Below, in pieces: positions 1,777 through 63,583 of a stretch of 64,000 bases of DNA; the stretch's first letter is position 1, and each line of letters starts with the position of its first letter. The translations under genes were made by a program, and so were the position numbers. Location: contig NZ_JAGPXE010000005.1 in the NCBI RefSeq assembly GCF_018070075.1, positions 310,001 to 374,000 on the forward strand, in the 5' to 3' direction. The stretch comes from Saccharopolyspora endophytica (GTDB lineage: Bacteria > Actinomycetota > Actinomycetes > Mycobacteriales > Pseudonocardiaceae). The notes beneath the pieces were generated by a model. That model did no database searches and was not told the DNA's origin. It saw only the letters and a list, made by a program, of their open reading frames with translations.

Positions 1777-2649
1777 GTGACCCGACAGCCACTGCGCTTG
1801 GCAATCCTGGAGGCCGAGCGCACTCTCGCGGCGGCGGGCGTGGGTAGTCCACGCGCCGACGCCGAGCTTCTCGCCGCGCATCTGCTCGGCGTCGAGCGCA
1901 CCAAGCTCATGATGGTTCCCCTGGTCGACCCGCCGGTCGTGGAGGCTCTGCAGGAACTGGTGGGCCAGCGCGCCGCCCGCGTCCCGCTGCAGCACCTGAC
2001 CGGTCGCGCCCACCTGGGCGGTGTGGACCTGGAGGTCGGGCCCGGCGTGTTCGTGCCCCGCCCGGAGACGGAGCTGCTGGTCGAGTGGGGTGTCGGTGTC
2101 GTGGACGGCGTCGAGCGGCCCACGATCGTCGACCTCTGCTCGGGTTCGGGAGCTCTCGCGCTGGCGTTGGCGCACGCCCGCCCGGACGCGTGCGTGCACG
2201 CGGTCGAGAAGGATCCCGCTGCCCTGTCGTGGGCGCGGCGCAACGCCGGTCTGCGGTCGGAGGCGGGGGACACCCCGATCGGCCTCTACTCCGGTGACGT
2301 CACCGACCCCATGCTGTTCATGGAGTTGGAGGGCCTGGTCGACCTGGTCGTCTGCAACCCGCCGTACGTCCCGGACGGAACTCCGGTCCCGCCGGAGGTC
2401 CGCAACCACGACCCGCACGAGGCCGTCTTCGGCGGCCGGGACGGGCTCGACGTCGTCCGCCACGTGGTGGCCTGCGCGGCCCGGCTGCTCAAACCGGGCG
2501 GCGGTGTGGCGATCGAGCACGACGACACCCACGGCGGTTCGGTGCCCGCGCTGCTGCGCGCCCGCAGGGTCCTGACCGAGGTCCAGGAACACCCGGATCT
2601 GGCCGGCCGCCCCCGTTTCGCGACTGCCCGCCGCACCCACCCGGAGTGA
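1777..2649 (+). CDS. prmC: Release factor glutamine N5-methyltransferase
   Basis: This enzyme (HemK family) transfers a methyl group from S-adenosylmethionine to the glutamine of the GGQ motif in release factors. The 290-residue protein has an N-terminal helical domain and a Rossmann-type domain with DLCSGSGAL for cofactor binding and the catalytic VVCNPPYVPDG. It follows prfA, the common arrangement. I chose the GTG at 1777; an in-frame TTG at 1756 would overlap prfA. The TGA stop lies inside a copy of the dispersed GGAAGGTTCCC repeat. Confidence 0.93.
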   Translation: MTRQPLRLAILEAERTLAAAGVGSPRADAELLAAHLLGVERTKLMMVPLVDPPVVEALQELVGQRAARVPLQHLTGRAHLGGVDLEVGPGVFVPRPETELLVEWGVGVVDGVERPTIVDLCSGSGALALALAHARPDACVHAVEKDPAALSWARRNAGLRSEAGDTPIGLYSGDVTDPMLFMELEGLVDLVVCNPPYVPDGTPVPPEVRNHDPHEAVFGGRDGLDVVRHVVACAARLLKPGGGVAIEHDDTHGGSVPALLRARRVLTEVQEHPDLAGRPRFATARRTHPE

Positions 2650-2670
2650 CAGGAAGGTTCCCTTCCTCGC
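2646..2670 (+). repeat. GGAAGGTTCCC repeat, copy overlapping the prmC stop
   Basis: GTGACAGGAAGGTTCCC followed by TTCCTCGC. The prmC TGA is bases 2647-2649 of this copy. It is one of 33 copies in the window; see the first finding for the whole family. Confidence 0.85.
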
Positions 2671-2680
2671 GATGAGAAGG

Positions 2681-2724
2681 GCCCCTGCCCATCGGGGAGC
2701 GGATTCCCGGTGATGGACAGGGGC
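2681..2724. terminator. Bidirectional hairpin between convergent prmC and hydrolase genes
   Basis: GCCCCTGCCCATC at 2681-2693 pairs with GATGGACAGGGGC at 2712-2724, a 13-base stem with one mismatch. It lies midway between two convergent genes and is flanked by a dispersed repeat on each side. There is no clear T-run. Confidence 0.65.
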
Positions 2725-2729
2725 CTCTG

Positions 2730-2753
2730 GTGAGCGGAAGGTTCCCTTGCTCA
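2730..2753 (+). repeat. GGAAGGTTCCC repeat, copy overlapping the hydrolase stop
   Basis: GTGAGCGGAAGGTTCCC followed by TTGCTCA. The outer bases TGAGC and GCTCA form a small dyad. The last three bases (2751-2753) are the stop codon of the minus-strand hydrolase. Confidence 0.85.
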
Positions 2754-5320: not shown

Positions 5321-6487
5321 ATGGACTACGCACCCTTCGCCCCGGTCGGACTGCCCGCTCGTGAGTACCTGTTGGTCATGCTCACGGCGGCGGTCACCAC
5401 GTTCCTGCTGACCGGCCTGGTCCGGCTGCTGGCCATCCGGGTGGGCGCGGTCGCCTACCCGCGGGTCCGCGACGTGCACGTCAAGCCGATGCCGCGGATG
5501 GGCGGCGTGGCGATGTACGGCGGTGTGCTGGCCGCGACGTTCCTGGCCGCGAACCTGCCCGCGCTGTCGCGCGGCTTCGCCTACTCCAAGGATTCGCTGG
5601 CGGTGCTCATCGCCGGCGGGCTGATCGTGCTGGTGGGCGCGCTCGACGACCGGTTCGAGCTGGATTCGCTGACGAAGCTGGCCGGGCAGGTCACCGCGGC
5701 CGGGATCCTGGTGCTCTCCGGTGTGCAGTGGTTCGTGTTCTGGGTGCCGTGGGGCGGCACGGACGGTCACGTCGGTCAGCTGCTGGTGCTGGGCAGCAAC
5801 CAGGGTCAGCTGCTGACGGTGCTGCTGGTCGTGGCCATGATCAACGCGATGAACTTCGTCGACGGTCTGGACGGGCTGGCCTCGGGCATCGGGTTGATCT
5901 CGGCGACCGCGACGTTCGTGTTCTGCCTGAGCGTGCTGGACCGGCAGAACGGCGACGTCAACGCCTACCCGCCGGCGCTGATCGCGGCCGCCATCGCCGG
6001 TGCCTGCCTGGGTTTCCTGCCGCACAACTTCCAGCCCGCGAAGATCTTCATGGGCGACTCCGGGTCGATGCTGATCGGCCTGATGCTGGCGACGGCGAGC
6101 ACCTCGGCCTCGGGCCGGATCATCTACACCGGTTCCGGGCCGGGCGACACGATCGCGCTGCTCTCGCCGCTGCTGGTGGTCGCGGCGGTGCTGTTCGTCC
6201 CGCTGCTGGACCTGATCATGGCGGTGGTGCGGCGGACGAAGGCGGGCAAGAGCCCGTTCCACGCCGACAAGATGCACCTGCACCACCGGCTGCTCGAAAT
6301 CGGGCACTCGCAGCGCCGCGCGGTGCTGCTGATGTACCTGTGGGCCGCGGTGATCGCCTTCGGCGCGGTGTCGTTGACGCTGTTCAACACGTGGGTGGTC
6401 GGCTGGGTCGTGGCGTTGACGGTGCTGCTGGCCGCTATCATCTCGTTGATTCCGCGCATGCGAACCCGAGCCGATCGAGAGTCCTGA
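5321..6487 (+). CDS. wecA: Undecaprenyl/decaprenyl-phosphate GlcNAc-1-phosphate transferase
   Basis: This is an integral membrane protein of the polyprenyl-phosphate N-acetylhexosamine-1-phosphate transferase family. It transfers GlcNAc-1-phosphate from UDP-GlcNAc to a lipid carrier, a first step in making arabinogalactan linker or other wall glycans. The 388 residues contain the Asp-rich ALDDRFELD (Asp109, Asp110), NFVDGLDGLA (Asp181, Asp184), NFQPAKIFMGDSGS and the late MHLHHRLLEIGHS motif, with about ten hydrophobic segments. The stop overlaps the next start (TGATG), so it is translationally coupled to the AtpI-like gene. Upstream, 5103-5320 has no clear gene. Confidence 0.88.
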   Translation: MDYAPFAPVGLPAREYLLVMLTAAVTTFLLTGLVRLLAIRVGAVAYPRVRDVHVKPMPRMGGVAMYGGVLAATFLAANLPALSRGFAYSKDSLAVLIAGGLIVLVGALDDRFELDSLTKLAGQVTAAGILVLSGVQWFVFWVPWGGTDGHVGQLLVLGSNQGQLLTVLLVVAMINAMNFVDGLDGLASGIGLISATATFVFCLSVLDRQNGDVNAYPPALIAAAIAGACLGFLPHNFQPAKIFMGDSGSMLIGLMLATASTSASGRIIYTGSGPGDTIALLSPLLVVAAVLFVPLLDLIMAVVRRTKAGKSPFHADKMHLHHRLLEIGHSQRRAVLLMYLWAAVIAFGAVSLTLFNTWVVGWVVALTVLLAAIISLIPRMRTRADRES

Positions 6488-6951
6488 TGAGCGAAGCATC
6501 CGAGCCCGCCACCGGCGAGCAGGCCGAGCCGGAGAACCCGCACGCCGAGGTCGTGCGCAGGTTGGCCACGGCGATGCTGCGCACCGCGGTGTGGCCGGGT
6601 GCGGCCACTGTGGTCCTCGGGGCGATCGTGGCGACGGTCCTGGTCGGGGTTCCCGGGTTGGTGGGAGCGCTGATCGGTGGGGTCGTGGCCTTCGGGTCCT
6701 CGCTGCTGACCATCTGGCTGATGCGGTTCTCCGGAGGGATGAACCCCCAATTTGTGATGGTCATCGCACTCGGTGGTTATGTCGGCAAGATGTTGGTGCT
6801 CTTGGTGGTGATGACGTTGCTGGGAGGCATCGACGCCATCCACCGGGAATCGCTGGCCTTCACGATGCTGGCCACGGTCATGGTGTGGGCGGGGGCTGAG
6901 GTGGTGGCCTTCAAGCGCACCAAGATCCCGACCATCATTCCGACCAACTGA
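6487..6951 (+). CDS. atpI: AtpI-like membrane protein upstream of ATP synthase
   Basis: The 154-residue protein has a polar N-terminus of about 40 residues and four hydrophobic segments, ending in a basic tail. Its place, between the wecA-type gene and atpB, and its four-helix layout match the AtpI/Rv1303-type proteins thought to help assemble the c-ring or carry magnesium. Sequence conservation in this family is weak, so the name rests mainly on position. The ATG at 6487 overlaps the preceding stop. A 274-base gap follows before atpB; it contains small hairpins and probably the operon promoter, which I could not place. Confidence 0.72.
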   Translation: MSEASEPATGEQAEPENPHAEVVRRLATAMLRTAVWPGAATVVLGAIVATVLVGVPGLVGALIGGVVAFGSSLLTIWLMRFSGGMNPQFVMVIALGGYVGKMLVLLVVMTLLGGIDAIHRESLAFTMLATVMVWAGAEVVAFKRTKIPTIIPTN

Positions 6952-7225
6952 ACCGTTCTCACGGCGTAATCCGAACCTGCGGACGGGTGCAATCGCAGGA
7001 GTAGTCGACCAGCATGTCGGGAGGCTACTTACCCGCTGGTAAGGTCTCGACCGAAAGCCTTCCCTGCACAGCGGGTTGAAGGGCACCAGAAGGTCGGCCT
7101 TCAGACGCCACTAGGTGGGGAGGGCCCCTCCGCGTGCCGGATCGCGTATCAGGTACGTTAAGTGCAAAACGTGACGATTCCCCCGGAAGAGTGAAGTTCG
7201 GCCGGGAGAACCGGAAGGAGCCCAG

Positions 7226-8005
7226 TTGGGCGCGCTGATGCTGGCCGAAGGCGGAACATTCCAGCCGCCGGGCGCCGATAGCTTTTTCCTCCCGCCGATC
7301 GCCGGCGGAGTCACCAAGCCGATGGTTCTCGTCGTGGCTTCGGCGATCATCGTGGGCGCCTACTTCCTGATCGCCACCCGAAACCTCAAGCTGGTTCCGG
7401 GCAAGGGTCAGTTCGTGGCCGAGTTCGCCTACGAGTTCAGCCGGAACAAGATTGCCCGGGAGCAGATCGGCGCCAAGGACTTCCGTCCTTTCGTGCCGCT
7501 GATCTTCGCGCTGTTCACGTTCGTACTGGTGAACAACCTCTTCGGGATCATCCCGATCATCCAGTTCCCCACGATGTCCAAGATCGGTTTCCCGATCGCG
7601 CTGGCCGCCGTGGTCTACGTGGTGTTCCACGGGGTGGGCTTCGCCCGGCACGGCTTCCTGGGCTACTTCAAGCACATCATGTTCCCGCCCGGGGTTCCGA
7701 AGCCGATCTACCTCCTGCTGGCACCCATCGAGTTCCTGCAGAAGTTCGTCGCGCAGCCGGCCGCTCTGGCGGTCCGAGTGTTCGCCGCGATGTTCGCCGG
7801 ACACCTCATCCTGCTGGTGTTCACGCTCGGCGGTGAGTACCTGCTCCTCGAGGCGAGCGTGGCGTTCAAGCCCATCTCCGTGGTGGCATTCGCCTTCGCT
7901 ATCGCCCTGACCTTTGTCGAAGCCCTGATTCAGGTGCTTCAGGCCTACATCTTCGCCCTGCTGACCGCCAACTTCATCGGCGCAGCGCTGGCCGAAGGCC
8001 ACTGA
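7226..8005 (+). CDS. atpB: ATP synthase Fo subunit a
   Basis: Subunit a forms the proton half-channels next to the c-ring. The 259-residue protein is hydrophobic with five to six membrane helices. The essential arginine is in LAVRVFAAMFAGH, and the late helix contains FVEALIQVLQAYIFALL as in other a subunits. Translation should begin at the TTG at 7226, five bases after a strong GGAAGGAG; an ATG four codons later lacks that spacing. It is the first gene of the atpBEFHAGDC operon. Confidence 0.95.
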   Translation: MGALMLAEGGTFQPPGADSFFLPPIAGGVTKPMVLVVASAIIVGAYFLIATRNLKLVPGKGQFVAEFAYEFSRNKIAREQIGAKDFRPFVPLIFALFTFVLVNNLFGIIPIIQFPTMSKIGFPIALAAVVYVVFHGVGFARHGFLGYFKHIMFPPGVPKPIYLLLAPIEFLQKFVAQPAALAVRVFAAMFAGHLILLVFTLGGEYLLLEASVAFKPISVVAFAFAIALTFVEALIQVLQAYIFALLTANFIGAALAEGH

Positions 8006-8109
8006 GGGCCTGACACAAATAAAAACCGGGCGACGACAAAGACTTTCCGATCCGAAAAAGGACCTGTCGATCCGCCCAGATAAAGCGGACCGAGTGAAAG
8101 GTAGTGAAA

Positions 8110-8367
8110 GTGAGCAACATCGTTCTCGCGCAGGCCGCTGAGGCTGCGGGCAGCATCAACCCCGGTCTCGCCGCGATCGGCTACGGCCTCGGCGCCGTCG
8201 GCCCGGGCATCGGCGTGGGTCTGATCTGGGCCGCCGTCATCAACGGCACCGCCCGCCAGCCGGAGGCCCAGGGCCAGCTGCAGGGCATCGCCTGGATCTC
8301 CTTCGTTCTGGTCGAGGTGCTGGCGCTGATCGGTCTGGTCGTCTACTTCATCGCGTCGGCTGCCTGA
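8110..8367 (+). CDS. atpE: ATP synthase Fo subunit c
   Basis: The 85-residue hairpin proteolipid builds the rotating c-ring. The polar loop RQPEAQ and the proton-binding Glu in helix 2 ([11 protein letters not shown]) are present, and the glycine-rich helix 1 is typical. I chose the GTG at 8110, eight bases after AAAGG; another GTG at 8104 is too close to it. A 100-base AT-richer spacer separates it from atpB. Confidence 0.95.
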
Positions 8368-8402
8368 TCATCTGACGGCTCAACGCGTTGGGAGACGTTG
8401 TG

Positions 8403-8960
8403 GTGAAGACCCAGATGCTGCTCGCCGCTGAAGGCGAGCACAACCCGATCGTCCCGGAGCCCGCGGAGATCGTGGTCGGTCTCGTCGCGTTCGGGCTGCT
8501 GCTGTTCGTGCTCTGGAAGTTCGCGGTCCCGCGCTTCGAGAAGATCTACGCGGAGCGCAGCGAGCGGATCGAGGGCGGGATCGCGAAGGCCGAGGCCGCG
8601 CAGGCCGAGGCACAGCGGACCCTGGAGCAGTACAAGTCGCAGCTGGCCGAAGCTCGTGCCGAGGCCGCACGCATTCGCGACGACGCCCGTGCCGAGGGGC
8701 AGCAGATCCTGGAGGAGATGCGGACTCAGGCTCAGACCGAGTCGGACCGCATCGTCAGCCAGGGTCAGTCCCAGCTGGCGCACCAGCGGGCTCAGATCGT
8801 CGCCGAACTGCGTTCCGACCTGGGACGTCAGGCGGTCGACCTGGCCAGCCGGGTGGTCGGCGAGTCCCTGGAGGACGAGGCGCGTCGTCGCGGCACCGTT
8901 GACCGGTTCCTCGACGAGCTGGACGCGACCTCGGCCCCGGCCGAGTCGGCCAAGCCCTGA
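8403..8960 (+). CDS. atpF: ATP synthase Fo subunit b
   Basis: Subunit b is the peripheral stalk. The 185-residue protein has a short N-terminal segment, one membrane helix (EIVVGLVAFGLLLFVLW) and a long charged coiled coil rich in Ala, Glu and Arg. The GTG at 8403 has GGAGA seven bases upstream and was preferred to the TTG at 8388. It lies between atpE and atpH as in most bacteria. Confidence 0.94.
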   Translation: MKTQMLLAAEGEHNPIVPEPAEIVVGLVAFGLLLFVLWKFAVPRFEKIYAERSERIEGGIAKAEAAQAEAQRTLEQYKSQLAEARAEAARIRDDARAEGQQILEEMRTQAQTESDRIVSQGQSQLAHQRAQIVAELRSDLGRQAVDLASRVVGESLEDEARRRGTVDRFLDELDATSAPAESAKP

Positions 8961-8982
8961 ACCTAGTGAAAGGCGCTGAGAG

Positions 8983-9813
8983 TTGAGCACCCTCGTGAAC
9001 GCCGCGAGCCGTGAGGCAATGGCAGCGAGTCAGCTGCAGTTGCTGCAGGCCACTGACGGGGCTCAGGCTGCGGAGATCACCGGGCTCGCCGACGAGCTGT
9101 TCGGCGTGGCCGCTCTGCTGGGCCGCGAGTCCACGCTCCGCCGGGCGCTCGCCGACGCCTCCACCGACGCGCAGTCCAGGGAGAACCTGGCCCGCGGGTT
9201 GCTGGAGTCCAAGGTCGGCGCCCGGGCGCTGCCGGTGATCGTCGAAGCCGTCCGCGCACGCTGGTCCAGCCCGAGCGACCTGGTCGGCGGGCTCGAGCAG
9301 CTCGCCCGCACCGCGCTGCTGGTGCAGGCCGAGCGGGCAGGTCGCCTCGACGCGGTCGAGGACGAGCTGTTCCGGCTGGGCCGCATCATCGGCTCCGAAG
9401 TGGACCTGGAGCGCTTGCTGTCCGATCCCTCCGGGGACCCGGCCAGCAAGACCGCCGTGCTGGATCGGCTCATCGAGGGCAAGGTCGAACCGGTCACCCT
9501 CGAACTGGTCCGGCAGCTCGTGGCCCGGCCGCGTGGCCGGCGGGTCAGCGAGGGGCTGGAAGAGCTGGCCGAGCTGTCGGCGAAGCGCCGGGAACGCTCG
9601 GTGGCGCACATCCGTTCCGCGTTCCCGCTCAGTGCGGAACAGCAGGACCGGTTGTCGCGCACCCTGCAGCGGATCTACGCCCGTCCCATCGCTCTGCACC
9701 TGGAGATCGATCCCGGTGTCGAGGGCGGGCTGCTGATCAAGGTCGGTGACGAGGTCATCGACGGCAGCGTGACGGGACGCCTGCAGACGCTGCGGCGCGA
9801 CCTGGCCGACTGA
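8983..9813 (+). CDS. atpH: ATP synthase F1 subunit delta
   Basis: Delta joins the peripheral stalk to the top of the F1 head. At 276 residues it is longer than the 180 or so of E. coli delta but normal for actinobacteria. The conserved C-terminal signature is visible as [20 protein letters not shown]. The start is a TTG at 8983 with AAAGG ten bases before it. A 93-base spacer precedes atpA. Confidence 0.93.
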
Positions 9814-9906
9814 TGCCGACACCGCGCCCCGGCTTGAAACCGAGCCGGGCGCGCGGTGCGCAACACCAACTCCCTTCCAAGAACTAACCGAGGGCAGGAA
9901 CGAGAC

Positions 9907-11550
9907 ATGGCGGAGCTGACGATCTCGTCGGACGAGATCCGCAGTGCGATCGAGAATTACGTCTCCAGCTACTCCCCGGAGGTCAGCCGCGAGGAGGTCG
10001 GGGTCGTCACCGATACCGGTGACGGCATCGCCCATGTCGAGGGCCTGCCTTCGGTGATGACCGAGGAACTGCTGGAGTTCCCCGGCGGCATCTACGGTGT
10101 CGCGATGAACCTTGAGGCTCAGGAGATCGGCGCGGTCATCCTGGGTGAGTCCGAGAAGATCGAGGAAGGCCAGGAGGTCAAGCGGACCGGCAAGGTCCTG
10201 TCGACCCCCGTCGGCGACAACTTCCTCGGTCGCGTGGTGAACCCGCTGGGTGAGCCCATCGACGGACTCGGCGAGATCGTCGCCGAGGAGCAGCGCCCGC
10301 TGGAACTGCAGGCCGCCACGGTCGTGCAGCGCCAGGGCGTCGGCGAGCCGATGCAGACCGGCATCAAGGCCATCGACTCGATGACCCCGGTCGGCCGCGG
10401 ACAGCGCCAGCTGATCATCGGTGACCGCAAGACCGGCAAGACCACGGTCGCGGTCGACACGATCATCAACCAGAAGCAGAACTGGGAGTCGGGCGACCCG
10501 ACCAAGCAGGTCCGCTGCATCTACGTCGCGATCGGCCAGAAGGGCTCCACGATCGCCGGTGTGAAGCGGTCCCTCGAGGACGCCGGCGCGATGGACTACA
10601 CGACCATCGTCGCGGCCCCGGCCTCCGACTCCCCGGGTCTGAAGTGGCTGGCCCCCTACACCGGTTCGGCCATCGGCCAGCACTGGATGTACCAGGGCAA
10701 GCACGTCCTGATCATCTTCGACGACCTCACCAAGCAGGCCGAGGCCTACCGCGCGCTCTCGCTGCTGCTGCGTCGTCCGCCGGGCCGCGAGGCCTACCCG
10801 GGTGACGTCTTCTACCTGCACTCGCGTCTGCTGGAGCGCTGCGCGAAGCTGTCGGACGAGCTGGGCGCCGGTTCGATGACGGGTCTGCCGATCATCGAGA
10901 CCAAGGCCAACGACGTGTCGGCCTACATCCCGACCAACGTCATCTCGATCACCGACGGTCAGTGCTTCCTGCAGTCGGACATGTTCAACGCCGGTCAGCG
11001 CCCGGCCATCGACGTCGGCATCTCGGTGTCCCGTGTCGGTGGTTCCGCGCAGATCAAGGCGATGAAGAGCGTCACCGGTTCGCTGCGTCTGGACCTGGCC
11101 CAGTACCGCGAGCTGGAGGCCTTCTCGGCCTTCGCCTCCGACCTGGACGCCGCTTCCAAGGCCCAGCTGGACCGCGGTGCCCGCCTGATGGAGATCCTCA
11201 AGCAGGGGCAGGGCGAGCCGCTTCCGGTCGAGGAAGAGGTCGTGTCGCTCTACATCTCCACCAAGGGTCACCTCGACTCGGTGGCGATCGCCGACGTGCG
11301 CCGCTTCGAGAGCGAGTTCCTCGCTCACATGCGCCGCTCGCACGAGACCACGCTCAAGGACATCGTCGAGACCGGCAAGCTGTCGGCCGACGGCGAGAAG
11401 GTCATCGTGGACGCGATCGAGGAGTTCAAGAAGAGCTTCACCGGTTCGGCCGGCTCCGCCGCGCCGAGCGGCCCGGACGCCGAGGCTCTGGCCGCCGACG
11501 AGGTCGGGCAGGAGACCGTGAAGGTCGCCAAGCCCGCCCCGAAGGAGTGA
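9907..11550 (+). CDS. atpA: ATP synthase F1 subunit alpha
   Basis: Alpha is the regulatory nucleotide-binding subunit of the F1 hexamer. The 547-residue protein carries the P-loop GDRKTGKT at residues 172-179 and the family block [17 protein letters not shown]. The C-terminus is extended by about 40 residues rich in Ala, Gly and Glu, as in mycobacteria and relatives. The frame extends upstream, but the ATG at 9907 gives the normal N-terminus and follows GCAGGAACGAGAC. Confidence 0.97.
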
Positions 11551-11561
11551 CCAGGTAAGCC

Positions 11562-13914
<2,353 letters not shown>

Positions 13915-13919
13915 TCTGC

Positions 13920-13997
13920 CACCCCGCTTGCAAGCCTGGCGGGGTGTGGTGAAAACCGGCGAGCGGGGTCGGGGCCCGACGGGTCCCGACCCCCTTT
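13920..13997 (+). terminator. Double hairpin between atpD and atpC
   Basis: CACCCCGC at 13920-13927 pairs with GCGGGGTG at 13939-13946. A second perfect stem, GGGGTCGGG at 13965-13973 with CCCGACCCC at 13985-13993, is followed by CTTTG. The second has the form of an intrinsic terminator. It lies inside the ATP synthase operon, before the epsilon gene. Confidence 0.7.
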
Positions 13998-14048
13998 GCC
14001 ACTAGGCATTTTCAGCCCGGCCAGTCAGATCGCCCTGGTGGCGTTGGC

Positions 14049-14054
14049 TAGACT
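14049..14054 (+). promoter_or_regulatory. Candidate -10 element for atpC
   Basis: TAGACT at 14049-14054 in the context TTGGCTAGACTG lies 31 bases before the atpC start and downstream of the atpD hairpins. No convincing -35 is visible (CAGATC at 14026-14031 is at the right distance). Confidence 0.35.
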
Positions 14055-14084
14055 GCGGGCACACACCCGACAAAGGAGACGCGC

Positions 14085-14450
14085 GTGGCCAACATGTCCG
14101 TCCAACTGGTCGCCGTCGAGCGCCTGCTGTGGTCCGGGGAGGCGACCGCGGTCGTCGCGCAGACCACCGAGGGAGAGATCGGCATCCTGCCGGGCCACGA
14201 ACCGCTGCTGGGTCAGCTGGTCGAGGGTGGCGTCGTGCGCATCACCACTACCGACAAGGAGACCGTGACCGCTGCGGTCCACGGTGGCTTCCTGTCGGTG
14301 ACCGGTGCCGGCGTGAGCGTGCTCGCGGAGTCCGCGGAGCTGGCGCAGGAGATCGACGTGGCGCAGGCTCGCAAGGACGTCAAGAGCGACGACGAGCTGG
14401 CCAGAACGCAGGCGACAGCCCGATTGCGAGCAGCGGGCCACACGGACTGA
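14085..14450 (+). CDS. atpC: ATP synthase F1 subunit epsilon
   Basis: Epsilon couples the rotor to the c-ring and inhibits ATP hydrolysis. The 121-residue protein has the beta-sandwich with [16 protein letters not shown], and a short C-terminal helical part. A GTG at 14085 follows AAAGGAGA. The gene is 170 bases from atpD, behind a terminator-like structure, so its level may be set separately from the rest of the complex. Confidence 0.94.
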
Positions 14451-14460
14451 TCGGGCCAGC

Positions 14461-14895
14461 ATGGGTTCGCCGGTCGTGTTGCTCGTCGTAGCGTTCGCGC
14501 TGCTGCTGCTCGCCGCTCTCGCGGTGGGACTGCTGGCCTGGCGACGAGTGCGCGAACTGCGGGTCGGAGGCATCGACGTGGCGCTGCGCGCCACCGATGG
14601 CAAGGGACGCGGCTGGCAGCTGGGTGTGGCGCACTACCGGGGCGAGGAATTCGCCTGGTACCGCATCCTGAGCCTTCGCTCCGGCCCGAACTGGGTGATC
14701 AACCGGCGAACCGTGGACATCGCCCAGCGACGTGAACCCTCGGTCGCGGAGGCGTACGCGATGCCGAGCGGCTCCACGGTCCTGGACCTCACCGGTCCGG
14801 ACCTGGAGCTGGCGATGAACAGCGACGCGCTGACCGGCTTCCTGTCCTGGCTCGAATCGGCACCACCGGGACATTCGGTGCCGTGGGCGTCGTAG
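14461..14895 (+). CDS. DUF2550 membrane-anchored protein
   Basis: The 144-residue protein has one N-terminal membrane helix rich in Leu, Ala and Val followed by a cytoplasmic or external domain of about 115 residues with RGWQLGVAHYRGEEFAWYR. This is the DUF2550 family, found directly downstream of atpC in many actinobacteria (Rv1312 in Mycobacterium tuberculosis has this position). It begins 10 bases after the atpC stop and is followed by a terminator. Its function is unknown. Confidence 0.8.
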   Translation: MGSPVVLLVVAFALLLLAALAVGLLAWRRVRELRVGGIDVALRATDGKGRGWQLGVAHYRGEEFAWYRILSLRSGPNWVINRRTVDIAQRREPSVAEAYAMPSGSTVLDLTGPDLELAMNSDALTGFLSWLESAPPGHSVPWAS

Positions 14896-14956: not shown

Positions 14957-15020
14957 GGAGGATGGGAACCTTCCTGCCACTCCCGGCGCACGTGGTGACA
15001 GGAAAGTTCCCGTGCTCGCG
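14957..15020. repeat. Facing pair of GGAAGGTTCCC repeats
   Basis: A minus-oriented copy at 14957-14980 (GGGAACCTTCCTGCCAC) faces a plus-oriented copy at 14995-15020 (GTGACAGGAAAGTTCCC then GTGCTCGCG). The second has A for G in the core. Together they can fold into a stem of about 17 bases. Confidence 0.8.
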
Positions 15021-16642: not shown

Positions 16643-16743
16643 GTGGCAGGAAGGTTCCCTCGCACCACAGGCACCGCTGCGGCACCGCAGGTGACAGGAA
16701 GGCTTCCCGCACCTCCACCCGGTGGGAGGAAGGTTCCCTCACG
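16643..16743 (+). repeat. Three tandem GGAAGGTTCCC repeats upstream of murA
   Basis: Copies in the same orientation lie at 16643-16665 (GTGGCAGGAAGGTTCCC), 16691-16710 (GTGACAGGAAGGCTTCCC, a core with one extra C that is a perfect palindrome) and 16722-16743 (GTGGGAGGAAGGTTCCC). They fill the divergent region between the adenosyltransferase and murA starts. Confidence 0.8.
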
Positions 16744-16796
16744 AGCTCGTGACCCGCCCCGATGCGCGTTGGGCGGGGGCCGTAACCTCGATGCTC

Positions 16797-19104: not shown

Positions 19105-19129
19105 GTGCGCATGGGAACCTTCCTGCCAC
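19105..19129 (-). repeat. GGAAGGTTCCC repeat upstream of the NUDIX gene
   Basis: GTGCGCATGGGAACCTTCC then TGCCAC, minus-oriented. It lies 33 bases upstream of the NUDIX start. Confidence 0.8.
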
Positions 19130-19161: not shown

Positions 19162-19188
19162 GGTGGGCGAAAGGTTCCCCTACTCCGC
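19162..19188 (+). repeat. GAAAGGTTCCC repeat over the permease stop
   Basis: GGTGGGCGAAAGGTTCCCC then TACTCCGC. The stop codon of the minus-strand permease is bases 19180-19182 of this copy. It belongs to the GCGAAAGG-type variant of the family. Confidence 0.8.
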
Positions 19189-21375: not shown

Positions 21376-21705
21376 GTGGCAGGAAGGTTCCCCGGCTCCG
21401 ACCGCGCGCGGTGTTGCCCGTCCTCACCTGGCTTTCCGGGCCGCCGAATCCGCAGCCGATGAATCCGGCTGCTCGTGAACCGCGAGTGATGGCCGAGAAT
21501 GGTCGGCATTGCGCGACGCATTCGGAGCGTCACCGACCGTCGCCGACCATTCATCGATCTTGATCGGAATTGGATCGGATTGGGCGGTGACAGGAATGTT
21601 CCCATCATTCCCATTCCCGCCCATCGCGATCTGCCGGCACCGAGTTCCGCCTCGGATGGCGGACGCTTTCGGCGGCGGGAGTGGCAGAAAGGTTCCCGTG
21701 CTCGC
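21376..21705 (+). repeat. Three GGAAGGTTCCC repeats in the nucS downstream gap
   Basis: Between the convergent nucS and the small gene at 21716 there are 355 bases without another gene I can support. They hold three same-orientation copies: 21376-21400 (GTGGCAGGAAGGTTCCCC), 21586-21610 (GGTGACAGGAATGTTCCC, T in the core) and 21681-21705 (GTGGCAGAAAGGTTCCC then GTGCTCGC). The stretch 21480-21620 is less GC-rich than its neighbours. Confidence 0.8.
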
Positions 21706-25990: not shown

Positions 25991-26016
25991 GGTGACAGGA
26001 AGGTTCCCTTGCTCGC
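25991..26016 (+). repeat. GGAAGGTTCCC repeat between aldehyde dehydrogenase and dhaK
   Basis: GGTGACAGGAAGGTTCCC then TTGCTCGC, 44 bases after the dehydrogenase stop. It is one of the best matches to the consensus. Confidence 0.85.
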
Positions 26017-26141: not shown

Positions 26142-27137
<996 letters not shown>

Positions 27138-27151
27138 GGAGGAGTCCCGGA

Positions 27152-27790
27152 ATGGGTTGCACCGCACAGGACATCATCGCCGCGCTCAAGGCGGGTGCCG
27201 CCGTGGTCGCCGAGCACCGCGACGAGCTGATCCAGCTGGACCGCGAGATCGGCGACGCCGACCACGGCGAGAACATGGACCGAGGGTTCCGCGCCGTCAT
27301 CGCGAAGATCGAGACGTCGGAGCCCGAAACCCCGGCGGCCGCGCTGAAACTCGCCGCCACCGTGCTCATCTCCACGGTCGGTGGAGCATCGGGTCCCCTC
27401 TACGGCACGGCGTTCCTGCGCGCGGCGTCCGCGGTCGGCGACGAAGCGGAACTCGACGCGAGCGCCGTCGCGAAGGCCTTGCAGGCGGGCATGGAGGGTG
27501 TCGTCGCGCGCGGGCGCGCCGAGGTCGGCGACAAGACGATGATCGACGCCCTCTCGCCCGCGGTGGACGCGGCCAAGAACACCGCCGAATCCGGGGCCGA
27601 CAGCGCCAAGGTGCTGGCCGCGGCCGCCGAAGCTGCGCACCAGGGCGCGCAGGCGACCGAACCGCTCGTCGCCCGCAAGGGCCGCGCTTCGTACCTGGGT
27701 GAGCGCAGCGCCGGACACATCGACCCGGGGGCGCGTTCCACCGCGCTGCTGTTGACCGCATTCGCCGAAGCCGCAGGAGCCCGAGCATGA
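27152..27790 (+). CDS. dhaL: Dihydroxyacetone kinase subunit DhaL
   Basis: DhaL carries a bound ADP that is recharged to ATP by DhaM and then phosphorylates dihydroxyacetone on DhaK. The 212-residue protein has the Asp triad for Mg-ADP in DREIGDADHGENMDRGF, plus GGASGPLYGTAFLRA and VGDKTMIDALSPA. The ATG at 27152 follows GGAGGAG. Its stop overlaps the dhaM start (ATGA). Confidence 0.95.
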   Translation: MGCTAQDIIAALKAGAAVVAEHRDELIQLDREIGDADHGENMDRGFRAVIAKIETSEPETPAAALKLAATVLISTVGGASGPLYGTAFLRAASAVGDEAELDASAVAKALQAGMEGVVARGRAEVGDKTMIDALSPAVDAAKNTAESGADSAKVLAAAAEAAHQGAQATEPLVARKGRASYLGERSAGHIDPGARSTALLLTAFAEAAGARA

Positions 27791-28486: not shown

Positions 28487-28537
28487 GCGGAGGGGAACCT
28501 TCCTGCCACCGCTGGTGACAGGAAGGTTCCCCTCCGC
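28487..28537. repeat. Facing GGAAGGTTCCC repeats forming a 24-base hairpin after dhaM
   Basis: The minus-oriented copy at 28487-28510 and the plus-oriented copy at 28514-28537 are separated by only GCT. They pair over 24 bases with one mismatch. The structure could stop transcription of dhaKLM, although it has no T-run. Confidence 0.85.
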
Positions 28538-30735: not shown

Positions 30736-30762
30736 GGTGACAGGAAGGTTCCCATGCTCACG
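30736..30762 (+). repeat. GGAAGGTTCCC repeat between convergent genes
   Basis: GGTGACAGGAAGGTTCCC then ATGCTCACG. The stop codon of the minus-strand acetyltransferase (30758-30760) lies in its right flank, and the hydrolase stop is 12 bases to the left. Confidence 0.85.
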
Positions 30763-31344: not shown

Positions 31345-31427
31345 GTGACAGGAAGGTTCCCATGCCCGCACCCGGCCTGTTGCGTGCTGCGGGTGGGGCG
31401 GGTCCGGCAGGATGGTTCCCGTGCACT
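31345..31427 (+). repeat. GGAAGGTTCCC repeat and a degenerate copy at a gene start
   Basis: A good copy lies at 31345-31369 (GTGACAGGAAGGTTCCC then ATGCCCGC). A second, GGCAGGATGGTTCCCGTGC at 31407-31425, differs from it by one base in the core (T for A), and the next hydrolase starts within it. Confidence 0.7.
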
Positions 31428-37956: not shown

Positions 37957-37982
37957 AGTGGGCGAAAGGTTCCCATGCGCTC
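37957..37982 (+). repeat. GAAAGGTTCCC repeat between acylase and epimerase genes
   Basis: GTGGGCGAAAGGTTCCC then ATGCGCTCA, between two convergent genes, 20 bases past the acylase stop. Confidence 0.8.
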
Positions 37983-39647: not shown

Positions 39648-39716
39648 GTGAGCAAGGGAACCTCCCTGCCACCCCGGCCCGGTCGAAACCGCAGGACGGG
39701 GAACCTTCCGCTCACC
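39648..39716 (-). repeat. Two GGAAGGTTCCC repeats in the same orientation
   Basis: Minus-oriented copies at 39648-39672 (GTGAGCAAGGGAACCTCCC, C for T in the core) and 39691-39716 (GACGGGGAACCTTCCGC then TCACC) lie between the secreted protein and the thiolase. Confidence 0.75.
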
Positions 39717-43311: not shown

Positions 43312-43334
43312 GTGCGAGGGAACCTTCCTGTCAC
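43312..43334 (-). repeat. GGAAGGTTCCC repeat between TipAS and dinB genes
   Basis: GTGCGAGGGAACCTTCC then TGTCAC, minus-oriented. It lies 13 bases downstream of the TipAS-like gene stop. Confidence 0.8.
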
Positions 43335-44138: not shown

Positions 44139-44178
44139 GACCCCACCGTAACCGCGACCTGCGGTGATGCACAGCGCT

Positions 44179-44202
44179 GAGCGAAAGGTTCCCATGCTCG
44201 CG
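44179..44202 (+). repeat. GAAAGGTTCCC repeat beyond the sugar ABC operon
   Basis: GAGCGAAAGGTTCCCATGC then TCGCG. GAGC and GCTC at its ends form a dyad. It lies in the tandem gap between the DUF6191-like gene and the end of the sugar-binding protein gene. Confidence 0.8.
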
Positions 44203-45252: not shown

Positions 45253-45310
45253 CGAAACAACCTCCACACGACTCTGTGTTGAAAAAGGCTTGGGTTTCAA
45301 AGGATTTGGT

Positions 45311-47127: not shown

Positions 47128-48167
47128 GCGTGGCTCCCCGCTGATGGTGGTCTGCACAGCACGGTGGTGAGGTCGCCTTCCAAGCGGGTCTGCCCGGCGG
47201 CGTGCGGAACGACGGCGGTGGCTCCGCGCCGCAGCGGCAGGGGGGAACCGCTCGCGCAGTGCAGTTCTCCGCTGCCGTCGAGGACGATGAGCACGCCGAA
47301 GGACGGGTCGAGTTCGGCCGAACCGTGCAGGCGGTCGGCGCGGAAGAACGGGGCCGCGTCCTCGGCCAGGAGGGGAACGCGTCCTTCACCCAGGTCGCCG
47401 GTGCGCTTGATCAGCGATGCCAGGAGGGCGTCGTCGAAACCGGAGTGGTTGACCGTCTCCAGGGCGGTGGCGGTCTCCAGGCCGAGGAACGCGCCTTCGG
47501 CGTCGGTCAGGAATCCCTGCCACTCCAGGGTGATCGAGAAGTCGGTGGGCTGCTGCAGTTCGACGATGAACACCCCGGCGCCGATGGCGTGCGGAGTCCC
47601 GGCGGGCACGTGCACGGTGTCGCCGGGCTTGACCGGGATCTCGTTGAGCGAGCCCAGCATCGCCGAGGAGTCCTGGGTGCGCACCCACTCGGCCACCGTC
47701 TCGGGCGTCACGTCATCGCGGAACCCCAGGTACACCACGGGGTTCGCGCCGCTGGTGCCCACCACGATCCACGCCTCGGTCTTGCCGAAGCGAGAACCCA
47801 GGTGCTGCTTGGCGAACACGTCGTCGGGGTGGCAGTGGACCGGCAGGCGCTGGCCGGCGTCGAGCAGCTTCACCAGCAGCGCGGTGCTCTCGCCGTAGGC
47901 CGACACGTGATCGGCGCCCAGCCAGGACTGCGGGTCGGCGCTGACCACGTCGCGCAGCAGCCGGCCGTCGGGCAGCCGGGACAGCCCGGACTCGTCCTGC
48001 CCGAACCGGGTGGTGGTGGAGGCGACCCAGTCTTCGGGGCCGAACTCCCGGTCATCTCCGCCGCCGCGCAGCGCGGCGATCGACGCTCCACCCCGGTAGA
48101 ACTGCCGGGGCTGGTTCGCCGGCAGCACCGTTGCTCGCGCGGATGAAGAACTGTGGACGGAACTCAA
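47124..48167 (-). CDS. manA: Mannose-6-phosphate isomerase, class I
   Basis: The enzyme interconverts mannose 6-phosphate and fructose 6-phosphate. Zinc-site segments are visible: LPVHCHPDDVFAKQHLGSRFGKTEAW and VPAGTPHAIGAGVFIVEL. At 347 residues it is close to the usual length. I placed the start at a TTG at 48167 that overlaps the LacI stop (TTGA) and has GGAGAGG seven bases upstream, so the two genes are coupled. No mannose kinase is visible in the operon; it must act elsewhere. Confidence 0.88.
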   Translation of the reverse strand: MSSVHSSSSARATVLPANQPRQFYRGGASIAALRGGGDDREFGPEDWVASTTTRFGQDESGLSRLPDGRLLRDVVSADPQSWLGADHVSAYGESTALLVKLLDAGQRLPVHCHPDDVFAKQHLGSRFGKTEAWIVVGTSGANPVVYLGFRDDVTPETVAEWVRTQDSSAMLGSLNEIPVKPGDTVHVPAGTPHAIGAGVFIVELQQPTDFSITLEWQGFLTDAEGAFLGLETATALETVNHSGFDDALLASLIKRTGDLGEGRVPLLAEDAAPFFRADRLHGSAELDPSFGVLIVLDGSGELHCASGSPLPLRRGATAVVPHAAGQTRLEGDLTTVLCRPPSAGSHA

Positions 48168-49180
48168 CGAACTACCTCTCCAGAACCTCGGACCAGCAGC
48201 CTGGTCGGGACGACGACGCGGCCGGGTGGCGACGTGTCGCCGTCCAGTCGCGCGAACAGCAACTCGGCCGCGGACTTGCCCAACGCCCAGGTGTCGTGGG
48301 TGACCACGGTGATCGGTGGGTCCAGCAGGTCGGCCAGCTCGAAGTCGTCGAACCCGACCAGTGCCGGACGAGAGGGCCGCCCCGCGAGCGCGCGCAGCGC
48401 GTGAATGGTGATCCGGTTGTTGCCGGTGACCAGTGCGGTGGCCTCGCGCAGCGGGCCCGACAAGGTCTCGGCGACGGACTCGTCGGTGTGCGGGCCCATC
48501 ACGACCAGGTCGGACTGGAACGGCACTCCGGCTTGCGCGCATCCTTCGCGGAACCCGCGCAGTCGTTCGGCGGCGGTGTGGATCTCGGGGGCGTCGCCGA
48601 GGAAGGCGATGCGGCGGTGACCGTGCTCGGCGAGGTGCCGGGCCGCCTGGGCGGTCCCACCGGCGTTGTCGATGAGCACCGAGTCGGCGACGAGGTTGCC
48701 CGGCGGGCGGTCGACGAAGACCACCGGTGTGCCCGCGTTGATCTCGTGGGAGATGTAGCCGTGCTGATGACCTGCGGGAACGACGATCAGCCCGTCGACG
48801 CGGCGCGCGCAGAACTCCAGCACCAGCTCTCGCTCGCGCGTCGGGTCCTCGTCGGAGGACCCGGTGAGCACCTGCTTGCCCTGCACGCGGGCGACTTCCT
48901 CCACGGCGCGGGTCAGCACCGAGTAGAAGGGGTTGGCCAGGTCTTCCAGGACCAGGCCGAGGGTGCCGGTCCCGGTGCCGCGGCGCAGGTTCCGGGCGCT
49001 GACGTTGCGGCGGAAGCCGAGCTGGTCGATCGCGGAGAGCACGCGCTGCGCGGTCGTCGGGTGCACGCCGTCCTCGGCGTTGACGACGCGGGAGACCGTT
49101 TTGACGCTCACGCCGGCCAGCCGCGCGACATCGGTCATGGTGGCGCGGCGGACGTTTCTCGACTCAGACAACGTTGTCAT
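48164..49180 (-). CDS. LacI family transcriptional regulator
   Basis: The 338-residue protein has the LacI helix-turn-helix MTDVARLAGVSVKTVSRVVN near residues 15-35, a hinge helix, and a ribose-binding-protein-like effector domain. It heads the manA-ABC operon. A perfect 12-base palindrome overlaps its own first codons, and a related dyad precedes the divergent mannosidase, so autoregulation and joint control are likely. Its effector would be mannose, mannobiose or a phosphate ester, inferred from context only. Confidence 0.92.
   Translation of the reverse strand: MTTLSESRNVRRATMTDVARLAGVSVKTVSRVVNAEDGVHPTTAQRVLSAIDQLGFRRNVSARNLRRGTGTGTLGLVLEDLANPFYSVLTRAVEEVARVQGKQVLTGSSDEDPTRERELVLEFCARRVDGLIVVPAGHQHGYISHEINAGTPVVFVDRPPGNLVADSVLIDNAGGTAQAARHLAEHGHRRIAFLGDAPEIHTAAERLRGFREGCAQAGVPFQSDLVVMGPHTDESVAETLSGPLREATALVTGNNRITIHALRALAGRPSRPALVGFDDFELADLLDPPITVVTHDTWALGKSAAELLFARLDGDTSPPGRVVVPTRLLVRGSGEVVR
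49167..49178. promoter_or_regulatory. LacI-type operator at the start of the regulator gene
   Basis: GACAACGTTGTC is a perfect 12-base palindrome that overlaps the first codons of the LacI gene. Central CG with AT-rich flanks is typical of LacI operators. A related inverted repeat, AGCGTT and AACGCT around TTGTC, lies at 49208-49224. Confidence 0.6.
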
Positions 49181-49317: not shown

Positions 49318-49344
49318 GGTGGCAGAAAGGTTCCCTTCCTCGCG
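49318..49344 (+). repeat. GAAAGGTTCCC repeat in the LacI/mannosidase divergent region
   Basis: GGTGGCAGAAAGGTTCCC then TTCCTCGCG. It is one of the few copies located between divergent genes. Confidence 0.8.
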
Positions 49345-50921: not shown

Positions 50922-50975
50922 GCGAGGAGGGGAACCTTCCTGCCACCGCGGTGCGCGAAAGGTTCCCCTCCTCGC
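50922..50975. repeat. Facing repeats forming a hairpin after the mannosidase
   Basis: A minus-oriented copy (50922-50947) starts two bases after the stop and faces a plus-oriented copy (50950-50975). Their outer 17 bases pair perfectly. This could end mannosidase transcription. Confidence 0.85.
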
Positions 50976-52968: not shown

Positions 52969-53296
52969 TTTTTCGAACCTCTCGTTGAACTACTGGCCGA
53001 AGGTCCCCCACGAGAGACCCCGCAGCCCGCGAGACGACCGCAGTCCCTCGCAGGCTCTGTGTCCTCTTCGGCGATCACCACCGGAGGACATGAGGGTTTG
53101 ATCGCCTACACCACCTGTTCGTGTGGCTTCGTTCACCGATTCGAATTGATCTTTGGGGCTTCGGCGTGTCCGGATGAGCGCATTCGGTGACCACTTCGCC
53201 GCCCGTACGTGACCTTGGGGCGGGTGGTGCGAGAAAGGTTCCCCTCATCGCACGCCCACGCGCCACGCCGCTGGTCGGACGTGTCAGGATGGAACT
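52969..53296. other. Divergent intergenic region upstream of the chaplin-like gene
   Basis: This 328-base stretch has no gene I can support. It holds a hairpin (TGTCCTC at 53060-53066 with GAGGACA at 53084-53090) and one dispersed repeat at 53226-53253. Promoters were not placed. Confidence 0.45.
53226..53253 (+). repeat. GAAAGGTTCCC repeat with a clear outer dyad
   Basis: GTGCGAGAAAGGTTCCCC then TCATCGCAC. GTGCGA and TCGCAC are perfect partners outside the core. Confidence 0.8.
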
Positions 53297-54322: not shown

Positions 54323-54349
54323 GGTGGGCGAAGGGTTCCCTTCCTCCAC
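54323..54349 (+). repeat. GAAGGGTTCCC repeat between convergent genes
   Basis: GGTGGGCGAAGGGTTCCC then TTCCTCCAC, just beyond the hairpin at 54279-54317 and six bases before the phosphatase stop. Confidence 0.8.
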
Positions 54350-56721: not shown

Positions 56722-56747
56722 GTGGCAGGAAGGTTCCCACGCTCACC
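56722..56747 (+). repeat. GGAAGGTTCCC repeat over the second metallopeptidase stop
   Basis: GTGGCAGGAAGGTTCCC then ACGCTCACC. The stop codon of the minus-strand metallopeptidase (56743-56745) falls in its right flank. Confidence 0.85.
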
Positions 56748-62457: not shown

Positions 62458-62465
62458 ACCGATCG

Positions 62466-62517
62466 GCGCAGGGGAACCTTTCGCGCACTCCGGTGACAGA
62501 AAGGTTCCCATCCTCAC
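62466..62517. repeat. Facing pair of repeats after the TetR gene
   Basis: A minus-oriented copy at 62466-62488 (GGGGAACCTTTCGCGCAC) and a plus-oriented one at 62492-62517 (GGTGACAGAAAGGTTCCC then ATCCTCAC). They can pair over the core. Confidence 0.8.
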
Positions 62518-62569
62518 AACGCCCCCTCGCCTGCACGCCGGTCCGCTTTCGATGGGGCAGGGTGGAGGC

Positions 62570-63514
62570 ATGAGTGAAACCATGCGTGCCATCACCCAGG
62601 ACGCCTACGGCGGTCCCGAGGTGCTGCGCGAGGCACAACTGGACAAGCCCGAGCCGGGACCGAGCGAGGTCCTGATCCGCGTGCGCGCCGCCGGCGTCAA
62701 CCCCACCGACTGGAAGCACCGCGCCGGCCAGGGATTCCTCGGTGAACCCCCGCGCATCCTCGGCTGGGACGTCTCCGGCGTCGTCGAGGCCATCGGAACC
62801 GGCGTGACCCTGCACAAGCCGGGCGACGAGGTCTTCGGCATGCTGCCCTACCCGTTCGGACTCGGTTCTCACGCCGAGTACGTGACCGGTCCGGCGCGGG
62901 CCTTCGTCCCCAAGCCCACCGGGGTGGACCACGTGCAGGCGGGAGCCATCCCGCTCGCCGCGCTGACCGCGTGGCAGGCGCTGAACGACACCGCCGATCT
63001 GCAGGCGGGCCAGCGAATCCTGATCCACGCGGCCGCGGGCGGCGTCGGGCACCTCGCCGTGCAGATCGCCAAGGCCAAGGGCGCCCACGTCATCGCCACC
63101 GCGAGCAAGAGCAAGCACGAGTTCCTGACCGGGCTGGGCGTCGACGAGCTCATCGACTACACCTCGGCCGACTTCACCGAGGTCGTCAGCGATGTCGACG
63201 TCGTCCTCGACCCGATCGCCGCCGACTACCGCAGCCGCTCGCTGCGCGTGCTGCGCAAGGGCGGAATCCTCGTCTCGATCCTGCCCTACGACCGGGACGA
63301 ACTCGTCGCGGAAGCCGACGAGCTGGGCGTGCGCGCCGAACTGATGCTCGTCGAAGCCGACCAGGCCGGGATGCAGGCCGTCCGCGAGCTGGTCGAGGCG
63401 GGCAAGCTGCGCGTCGAGATCGCCGGGACGTTCCCGCTCGCCGATGCGGCCAAGGCCCACGCTCAGGGCGAGACCGGGCGCACCCAGGGCAAGCTCGTGC
63501 TGACCATCAACTGA
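62570..63514 (+). CDS. NADP-dependent quinone oxidoreductase-like protein
   Basis: The 314-residue protein is a zinc-free medium-chain dehydrogenase of the quinone oxidoreductase type: GVNPTDWKHRAGQGF, WDVSGVVEAIGTGVT, and the cofactor loop HAAAGGVGHLAVQIAKAKG. Members reduce quinones or enones with NADPH. The ATG at 62570 follows GGAGGC. Repeats lie on both sides of the gene. Confidence 0.87.
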   Translation: MSETMRAITQDAYGGPEVLREAQLDKPEPGPSEVLIRVRAAGVNPTDWKHRAGQGFLGEPPRILGWDVSGVVEAIGTGVTLHKPGDEVFGMLPYPFGLGSHAEYVTGPARAFVPKPTGVDHVQAGAIPLAALTAWQALNDTADLQAGQRILIHAAAGGVGHLAVQIAKAKGAHVIATASKSKHEFLTGLGVDELIDYTSADFTEVVSDVDVVLDPIAADYRSRSLRVLRKGGILVSILPYDRDELVAEADELGVRAELMLVEADQAGMQAVRELVEAGKLRVEIAGTFPLADAAKAHAQGETGRTQGKLVLTIN

Positions 63515-63530
63515 CGCAGCGCGCGACACC

Positions 63531-63583
63531 GCAGCAGGGGAACCCTTCTGCCACTTCGCGTGGCAGAAAGGTTCCCCTGCTCC
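63531..63583. repeat. Facing pair of repeats between convergent genes
   Basis: A minus-oriented copy at 63531-63554 (GGGGAACCCTTCTGCCAC, CC for C in the core) and a plus-oriented copy at 63560-63583 (GTGGCAGAAAGGTTCCCC then TGCTCC). The stop codon of the last gene abuts the second copy. Confidence 0.8.

Follow-up and report, generated by a model that had tools for sequence, protein, structure and literature searches.

A 27-bp dyad repeat clustered in one chromosomal block of Saccharopolyspora and two related groups: putative sites for a region-marking protein

A few model bacteria are known to have DNA sites that mark a particular region of the chromosome, at their origins and termini. The ParB-parS and Noc systems use palindromic sites present in many copies within one region, and repetitive extragenic palindromes (REPs) are not known to be limited to one region. 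In Escherichia coli the 13-bp matS site is present in 23 copies in the terminus (PMC3116907), and in Bacillus subtilis the helix-turn-helix protein RacA tethers the ram region to the pole through DivIVA (PMC6593407). Here we analyze a short repeated element with the core GRAAGGTTCCC in a 64,000-nucleotide stretch of Saccharopolyspora endophytica (the window), lying at 310,001-374,000 of contig C30 in a genome of 7,167,017 bp and 34 contigs (G000). Scans of each genome indicate that the motif is mainly a regional element, found in one syntenic block around rho and atp, and the window sits within the marked block of its own genome (C30 about 205-401 kb). No description of the motif was found in the titles and abstract openings listed for the literature searched, among them those of papers that hold GGAAGGTTCC.

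Allowing one mismatch, the core occurs 34 times in the window where 1.49 matches are expected, and none of 100 shuffled sequences reaches as many. A 23-bp weight matrix gives 40 matches above 0 bits, from which we accepted 33 copies: 31 scoring at least 12 bits, together with those at 39693 (10.3 bits) and 16691 (6.7 bits). The seven discarded matches score 0.9-4.1 bits and six of them are within open reading frames (ORFs). Two core matches missed by the matrix, at 3491 and 59570, are regarded as chance. The accepted copies span 2646-63582, with 24 in plus and nine in minus orientation, the same numbers as in a preliminary description of this DNA. Genes were taken from our own ORF caller and not from a standard annotator. 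With these, 27 of the 33 copies are intergenic and five overlap the stop-codon end of an ORF; the remaining one, at 31404-31426, overlaps an ORF start at 31412. This agrees with the preliminary account, in which all copies but that at 31407 lay between genes or across a stop codon. It had also noted that the atp, dhaKLM and sugar ABC operons are free of copies, and indeed none falls within 5321-14895 (atp), 26142-28476 (dhaK and the next two ORFs) or 44275-49138.

A scan of the whole genome and of related genomes had been proposed there. The motif proves to be real, being neither at chance frequency nor equally frequent in coding DNA, but it is regional rather than genome-wide; this clustering, and the conservation of copies between species, formed no part of the earlier account. 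In S. rosea (G003) 48 of 51 exact cores lie at 5.478-5.721 Mb, and in G020 78 of 79 lie at 1.590-1.780 Mb. Matches to CAGGAANGTTCCC are at 5.293-5.473 Mb in G395 (54/54) and at 1.031-1.166 Mb in G396 (60/62), and the extent in these four genomes is 136-243 kb. The first 50 exact-core matches listed for G014 include 48 at 3.857-4.067 Mb, and 12 of the 16 exact cores of G034 are inside the fetched block. A scan of named genome contigs returned mostly Saccharopolyspora, with single matches in other taxa, among 80 of 114 stretches listed.

Confinement is looser in the genome of the window. Its 84 exact cores (none in the reversed control) are divided among C30 (65), C4 (ten), C32 (six) and, with a single core apiece, C5, C29 and C33. 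Sixty of the 84 lie in the block, here C30 205-387 kb, which is syntenic with that of G020; five more are ahead of it at C30 150-166 kb. Contig C4 continues C30 by gene order, its end matching G020 genes 206-208, and half of its ten exact cores are inside ORFs. The matrix finds 80 matches in the block stretch of C30 and 15 at 150-166 kb, with about 40 kb of site-free DNA in between. Counting these 15 as members of the block by way of a paralogue of 44% identity was dropped, the group being ahead of the stretch that matches G020 gene 1. Within this group (C30:149838-165549) six sites follow one another in tandem at spacings of 46-48 bp. Another outlying group, of seven sites (C32:339208-345975), has four direct copies 42 bp apart and lies near genes that presumably resemble sepH and an rRNA methyltransferase gene.

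Sites occupy the same block in three genera. By reciprocal best hits this block is colinear in G000, G003, G020 and G034, and the matrix sites of G014, G396, S. flava (G016), S. dendranthemae (G001) and G010 map onto it. Within the fetched stretches, the sites span 203 kb in G003, 201 in G020, 288 in G014, 132 in G034, 165 in G396 and 187 kb in G016; the edges in G014, G396 and G016 may be cut, because sites lie near the end of the stretch. In the gene order of G020 the sites begin at gene 19-32 in G020, G003, G014, G396 and G016 and at gene 54 in G034; they end at gene 188-204. The positions of AtpB agree with this placement. Two AtpB matches each are present in G033 (one at G033:C1:5920775) and G028. 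The block is neither the terminus nor the origin. All 22 genomes of the window's genus have a single dif, which lies well away from the block in G003, G014 and G020 and, in G000, on a different contig. The distance between the block and the main parS cluster is 0.84-1.18 Mb in G003, G020, G034, G395 and G396, and for G014 it is 1.14-1.43 Mb.

The unit is a 27-bp two-fold dyad, GTGACAG-S-AAGG-TTC-CCTT-S-CTGTCAC, with the consensus GTGACAGGAARGTTCCCWTSCTC, extended in G034 to GTGACAGGAAAGTTCCCTTACTGTCAC. It consists of two 12-bp half-sites GTGACAGSAAGG facing each other across TTC, and is often doubled into a palindrome of 48-56 bp. The dyads seen in the preliminary description are thus real, and in G034 the flanks form the GTGACAG/CTGTCAC arms. 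The consensus is near-identical among the three genera, with a GGAAAGTTCCC variant making up the majority of sites in G034. At 12 bits or more the matrix finds 101 matches on C30 of G000, 80 in G003, 93 in G020, 130 in G014, 68 in G034, 86 in G396, 57 in G001, 98 in G016 and 34 in G010, and none in the reversed controls; a fuller scan of seven regions gave one control match, of 9.6 bits, in G034. Eight of the regions scored had also served to train the matrix; G010, G013, G019 and the regions of G033, G024 and G394 were outside the training.

Inverted pairs with a fixed register of 25 bp number 30 in G034, 23 in G003, 22 in G396 and 17 in G010, where they take up all 34 sites of the 70-kb contig. 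The units of G000, G020, G014 and G016 are mostly single or tandem, with 81/95, 78/92, 116/130 and 84/92 copies unpaired, respectively. The arms of a pair agree beyond shuffled partners in G034, G010 and G003 (22, 0 and 32 of 1000 shuffles are as good), so that the covariation looked for in the flanks is present in these three; in G396, 196 of 1000 shuffles are as good. The covariation fits a hairpin, and it also fits arm-to-arm correction in palindromes, which is a mutational process. Spacings of tandem copies peak near 30, 42 and 53 bp. We considered helical phasing and rejected it, as the peaks cannot be told apart from tandem duplication.

Most sites are placed between genes. Those inside ORFs number 4/92 in G020, 3/130 in G014, 3/80 in G003, 3/67 in G034, 2/86 in G396, 10/95 in G000 and 17/92 in G016, in regions that are 14-20% noncoding. 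When gaps of at least 60 bp are pooled over six genomes, sites occupy 46 of 98 convergent, 140 of 422 tandem and 29 of 185 divergent gaps. Over seven genomes a flanking stop codon is at a median distance of 54-85 bp and a flanking start codon at 145-215 bp, and only 0-5 sites per genome are within 40 bp of a start. There is no common rule of orientation against genes: unpaired sites in tandem gaps run with/against the genes in ratios of 28/21, 17/24, 19/44, 22/12, 11/8, 0/2, 20/26 and 10/13 in eight genomes. Unpaired sites lean weakly with the direction of replication in G000 (49/81), G020 (50/78), G014, G016, G001 and G396; this is not seen in G003 (13/28) or G034 (3/7).

Occupied gaps are strongly shared within the genus, and also between genera in smaller numbers. 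Counting gaps occupied in both genomes, the first only, the second only and neither, we find 30/0/2/58 for G020/G014 and 34/4/2/56 for G000/G016, and between genera 7/3/1/24 for G034/G396 (p=1.3e-4) and 9/5/3/26 for G034/G000 (p=5e-4). Sharing is also significant for G020/G396 (p=8.5e-7) and G034/G020 (p=3.4e-3). When occupancy was scored by the exact core only, no significant sharing with G034 was found. The gap before the murA-like gene that holds the site at 16643 is occupied in eight of nine genomes compared. Identity is higher inside the sites than outside in eight of ten pairs, clearly so in close ones (0.82-0.84 versus 0.59-0.73), with values of 0.834/0.665 for G000/G016, 0.843/0.725 for G000/G001 and 0.816/0.585 for G020/G014. 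Alignments of three close species, covering 14 of 19 differing gaps, show sites retained amid diverged flanks, together with decay of sites by substitution and extra copies adjoining old ones.

We surveyed CAGGAANGTTCCC in 390 genomes of the family, using genus labels as assigned in the genome set. Counts are 25-122 in 20 of the 22 genomes of the window's genus, the exceptions being G013 (2) and G019 (8). G034 has 38, and four of the six genomes of genus g61 (G395-G398) have 47-62. The carriers are most Saccharopolyspora and two related groups. The other g61 genomes, G393 and G394, have none; G033 (8,212,805 bp), which matches the chromosome of S. erythraea NRRL 2338 in length, has 3, G399 has 2 and the remaining genomes 0-5. 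A class-wide sample of 344 other genomes gave 0-1 matches to a longer pattern.

Sites have been lost while gene order was kept. This is seen in G033 and G394, G393 being covered by its count, and sites are absent or eroded in the regions of G033, G394 and G024. A relic pair (15.5 and 1.6 bits) persists in G033 at 7,097,916-7,097,961, beside the ortholog of G020 gene 98, a gene that in G020 is itself adjoined by a site, at 1,682,398. The best match in G394 (0.9 bits, control 1.2) is not significant; its neighbor, orthologous to G020 gene 56, adjoins a gap occupied in seven of nine genomes compared. G013, with two matches above 12 bits in 60 kb fetched, and G019, with one degenerate pair in 14 kb fetched, look half eroded. 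In a tree of 25 proteins G033 stands beside the genus of the window (support 89), G394 groups with G396 (100), and the position of G034 is tentative (53). Ancestral presence followed by several losses is the simplest reading. No other repeated 10-mer was evident when the corresponding block was examined in G033 and G024.

Because dozens of intergenic copies lie in this region and copies are rare elsewhere, we think it probable that the motif marks one chromosomal region for a putative sequence-specific DNA-binding protein, the repeats being its double-stranded sites. The 27-bp dyad units, one to several per gap and nearer to stop than to start codons, would then mark some 130-290 kb of one arm around rho-atp, at a distance of about 1 Mb from oriC. 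The protein would bind the copies, and bound copies might bridge, condense or tether the region, by analogy with MatP at Ter or RacA at the Bacillus origin region; site-free lineages would have lost or changed the protein. Such a protein would need sites of just this kind: unpaired dyads that have been maintained, follow no shared orientation relative to genes, seldom lie near starts and are gathered in one block. The preliminary description had put forward REP/BIME-like elements (BIME, bacterial interspersed mosaic element), a nucleoid-protein site, an RNA processing hairpin and a remnant miniature transposon. Taken together these are partly supported, with the nucleoid-protein site fitting best. 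More tentatively, and with odds that we put slightly below even, this may be an actinobacterial region-address system, in which a putative protein on some 70-130 copies of the dyad would organize or anchor a block of about 200 kb about 1 Mb from oriC. It would be the first at neither origin nor terminus, would be dispensable and go back to the ancestor of three genera, and would have been lost several times along with the erosion of its sites.

A number of results weigh against a region-marking protein. To our knowledge, a region of this kind about 1 Mb from oriC is without precedent. In a comparison made among the genes of the block, none was found whose presence follows the sites. Nearly all fetched copies in G034 and G010 are palindromic pairs with covarying arms, as a hairpin would also give, and the occupied gaps of G034 (convergent 2/12, tandem 21/56, divergent 5/16) show no convergent preference. 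The unpaired sites of G014 lean opposite to gene direction (the 19/44 above). Sites lie outside the block in G034 (4/16 exact cores) and in G000, where matrix sites number 15 at C30:150-166 kb, eight on the fetched part of C4 and seven on C32. Gap sharing is not significant for G034/G003 (p=0.11), and identity inside sites is not higher for G000/G003 (0.451/0.480) or G020/G396 (0.420/0.479), which are poor alignments. Finally, the sites are dispensable, given the background counts in G033/G399 and G393/G394 and the low counts and degeneration of copies in G013 and G019.

Several candidate binders were rejected. An IclR-like block gene is also absent from G396, which has sites, and among other differing block genes (a small gene and secreted-looking proteins) there is no DNA-binding gene that follows the sites. 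An apparent difference in rho was tentatively put down to its variable N-terminal part. The canonical parS, GTTTCACGTGAAAC, is separate from the motif and present in 11 of 11 genomes (for G033, at least the parS listed), which excludes the motif as its replacement; in the ten genomes with parS places fully listed it is mainly beside the ParB gene. A Noc-type ParB paralogue was also set aside, as 12 of 13 genomes have one ParB match and G014 two, the second at 35.5 bits.

Alternatively, some transposase might have multiplied palindromic miniature elements locally in an ancestor, after which these were inherited, duplicated in tandem and eroded, their regional limit being a matter of history and not of function. 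The 48-56 bp palindromes of G034, G010, G003 and G396 would be expected of these, as would tandem arrays, outlying groups, repeated loss and the extra copies in relatives, which are extra units beside existing sites. We consider this unlikely. In a search limited to the Y1 family no transposase match was found in seven of eight site-positive genomes, the one Y1_Tnp being that of the genome of the window; target-site duplications are no commoner than with shuffled flanks in six genomes; sites in close pairs are better conserved than their surroundings; and few copies lie outside the block in G003, G020, G395 and G396. Carriage by phage or plasmid was rejected: one strict pattern had no exact match among viral contigs, and one 91-bp query none among plasmids. 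A miniature transposon may be the origin of the repeats, but the lack of target-duplication excess and the conserved behavior in close relatives speak against it. REP/BIME elements of the kind mobilized by a REP-associated tyrosine transposase (RAYT) were rejected on the same lack of Y1 matches and on the regional copies. Y1 transposases are found in three of five site-negative genomes (G033, G393, G394) versus one of eight site-positive.

Hairpins that terminate, process or protect transcripts at RNA 3' ends would account for the closeness of sites to stop codons, for the covarying arms in three genomes and for the heavier use of convergent gaps in the pooled count. They give no reason for confinement to 2-4% of the genome, unpaired copies form the majority in G000, G020, G014 and G016, and there is no common orientation. 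Over the 40 of 64 kb scanned for intrinsic terminators (hairpin and T run), one scan gave 6 matches versus 5.7 in shuffles and another 0 versus 6.3, and terminator-like matches overlap no site; the L31 leader described below is the sole Rfam match at gathering threshold. This explanation is improbable, and an RNA processing hairpin is unlikely as the general role. Fork barriers or recombination sites serving replication or repair would be in keeping with the weak lean toward replication direction in most genomes, and with nucS and a Y-family polymerase gene in the block; given the inverted pairs, the mixed orientations and a single dif elsewhere in G000, G003, G014 and G020, we regard them as very improbable. 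Least probable of all is a large local regulon, with the sites as operators of an ordinary transcription factor. Dyads in intergenic DNA would suit it, and TetR, LacI and MarR genes are present in the window part of the block, but divergent gaps hold sites least often, sites close to starts are very few, the marked genes are mixed and the atp operon is site-free.

The copies in the window are collected in the table. Elsewhere in the window, an L31-Actinobacteria ribosomal leader (Rfam RF03158) lies at 299-345, ahead of the L31 gene.

Table. Accepted copies of the repeat in the window, with matrix scores and neighboring features.
Feature	Position	Strand	Score (bits)	Context
Site	2646..2668	+	41.5	Overlaps stop codon of ORF ending 2649
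Site	2730..2752	+	35.2	Overlaps stop-codon end of minus ORF at 2751
Site	14958..14980	-	38.1	Divergent with neighbor 14995
Site	14995..15017	+	36.6	
Site	16643..16665	+	29.4	Gap ahead of EPSP-synthase-family (murA-like) gene
Degenerate site	16691..16713	+	6.7	
Site	16722..16744	+	18.2	
Site	19107..19129	-	33.6	
Site	19163..19185	+	25.5	Overlaps stop-codon end of minus ORF at 19180
Site	21376..21398	+	27.4	Downstream of nucS
Site	21587..21609	+	30.2	
Site	21681..21703	+	33.5	
Site	25992..26014	+	41.9	Upstream of Dak1 (dhaK) gene
Site	28487..28509	-	29.8	Palindromic pair with 28515
Site	28515..28537	+	32.8	Palindromic pair with 28487
Site	30737..30759	+	41.5	Overlaps stop-codon end of minus ORF at 30758
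Site	31345..31367	+	36.0	
Weak site	31404..31426	+	13.9	Overlaps start of ORF at 31412
Site	37958..37980	+	25.8	
Site	39650..39672	-	32.7	
Weak site	39693..39715	-	10.3	Tandem with 39650
Site	43312..43334	-	32.3	
Site	44177..44199	+	30.0	
Site	49319..49341	+	37.6	
Site	50924..50946	-	34.8	Palindromic pair with 50951
Site	50951..50973	+	25.4	Palindromic pair with 50924
Site	53227..53249	+	26.3	
Site	54324..54346	+	22.1	
Site	56722..56744	+	32.8	Overlaps stop-codon end of minus ORF at 56743
Site	62466..62488	-	20.9	Palindromic pair with 62493
Site	62493..62515	+	40.0	Palindromic pair with 62466
Site	63532..63554	-	22.7	Palindromic pair with 63560
Site	63560..63582	+	34.2	Palindromic pair with 63532

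A dense marker away from origin and terminus, in a family of antibiotic producers, would if true show that other addressed chromosome regions exist. The presence and absence of sites within g61 (G395-G398 versus G393/G394), and in Saccharopolyspora versus G033, should make the protein findable by genome comparison, and the function of the system could be tested in laboratory strains.

Among described systems, the REP and REPIN elements associated with RAYT share with these repeats a small extragenic palindrome that occurs as singles, inverted pairs and tandem groups (PMC3733652; see also PMC3116915). The consensus here lacks GTAG, and on the two features tested, genome-wide spread and a RAYT gene, the repeats do not belong with them. 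ParB-parS and Noc differ in that canonical parS is present here as well, with no consistent second ParB. MatP/matS likewise has a short palindromic site repeated in one region, first recognized in silico (PMC3116907), and the matS ends GTGAC...GTCAC recall the arms GTGACAG...CTGTCAC. The sites lie in one contiguous region in G003, G020, G395 and G396, more loosely in G000 and G034. The present unit is 27 bp, numbers 67-130 copies per fetched block (G034, G003, G020 and G014) and is about 1 Mb from oriC; dif is outside the block, the 13-bp matS differs from the consensus, and the block genes, among which the MatP family was not searched for, offered no candidate for a dedicated DNA-binding protein of this type. 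RacA and ram provide a centromere-like motif dense in one region, with ram sites dense near the origin and also present elsewhere (PMC6593407). A long protein at 32517-34076 of the window, within the block, has a DivIVA match below the curated cut-off, and is of interest only because RacA tethers DNA to DivIVA. By analogy, then, the motif may work like matS or ram, while being placed in neither system.

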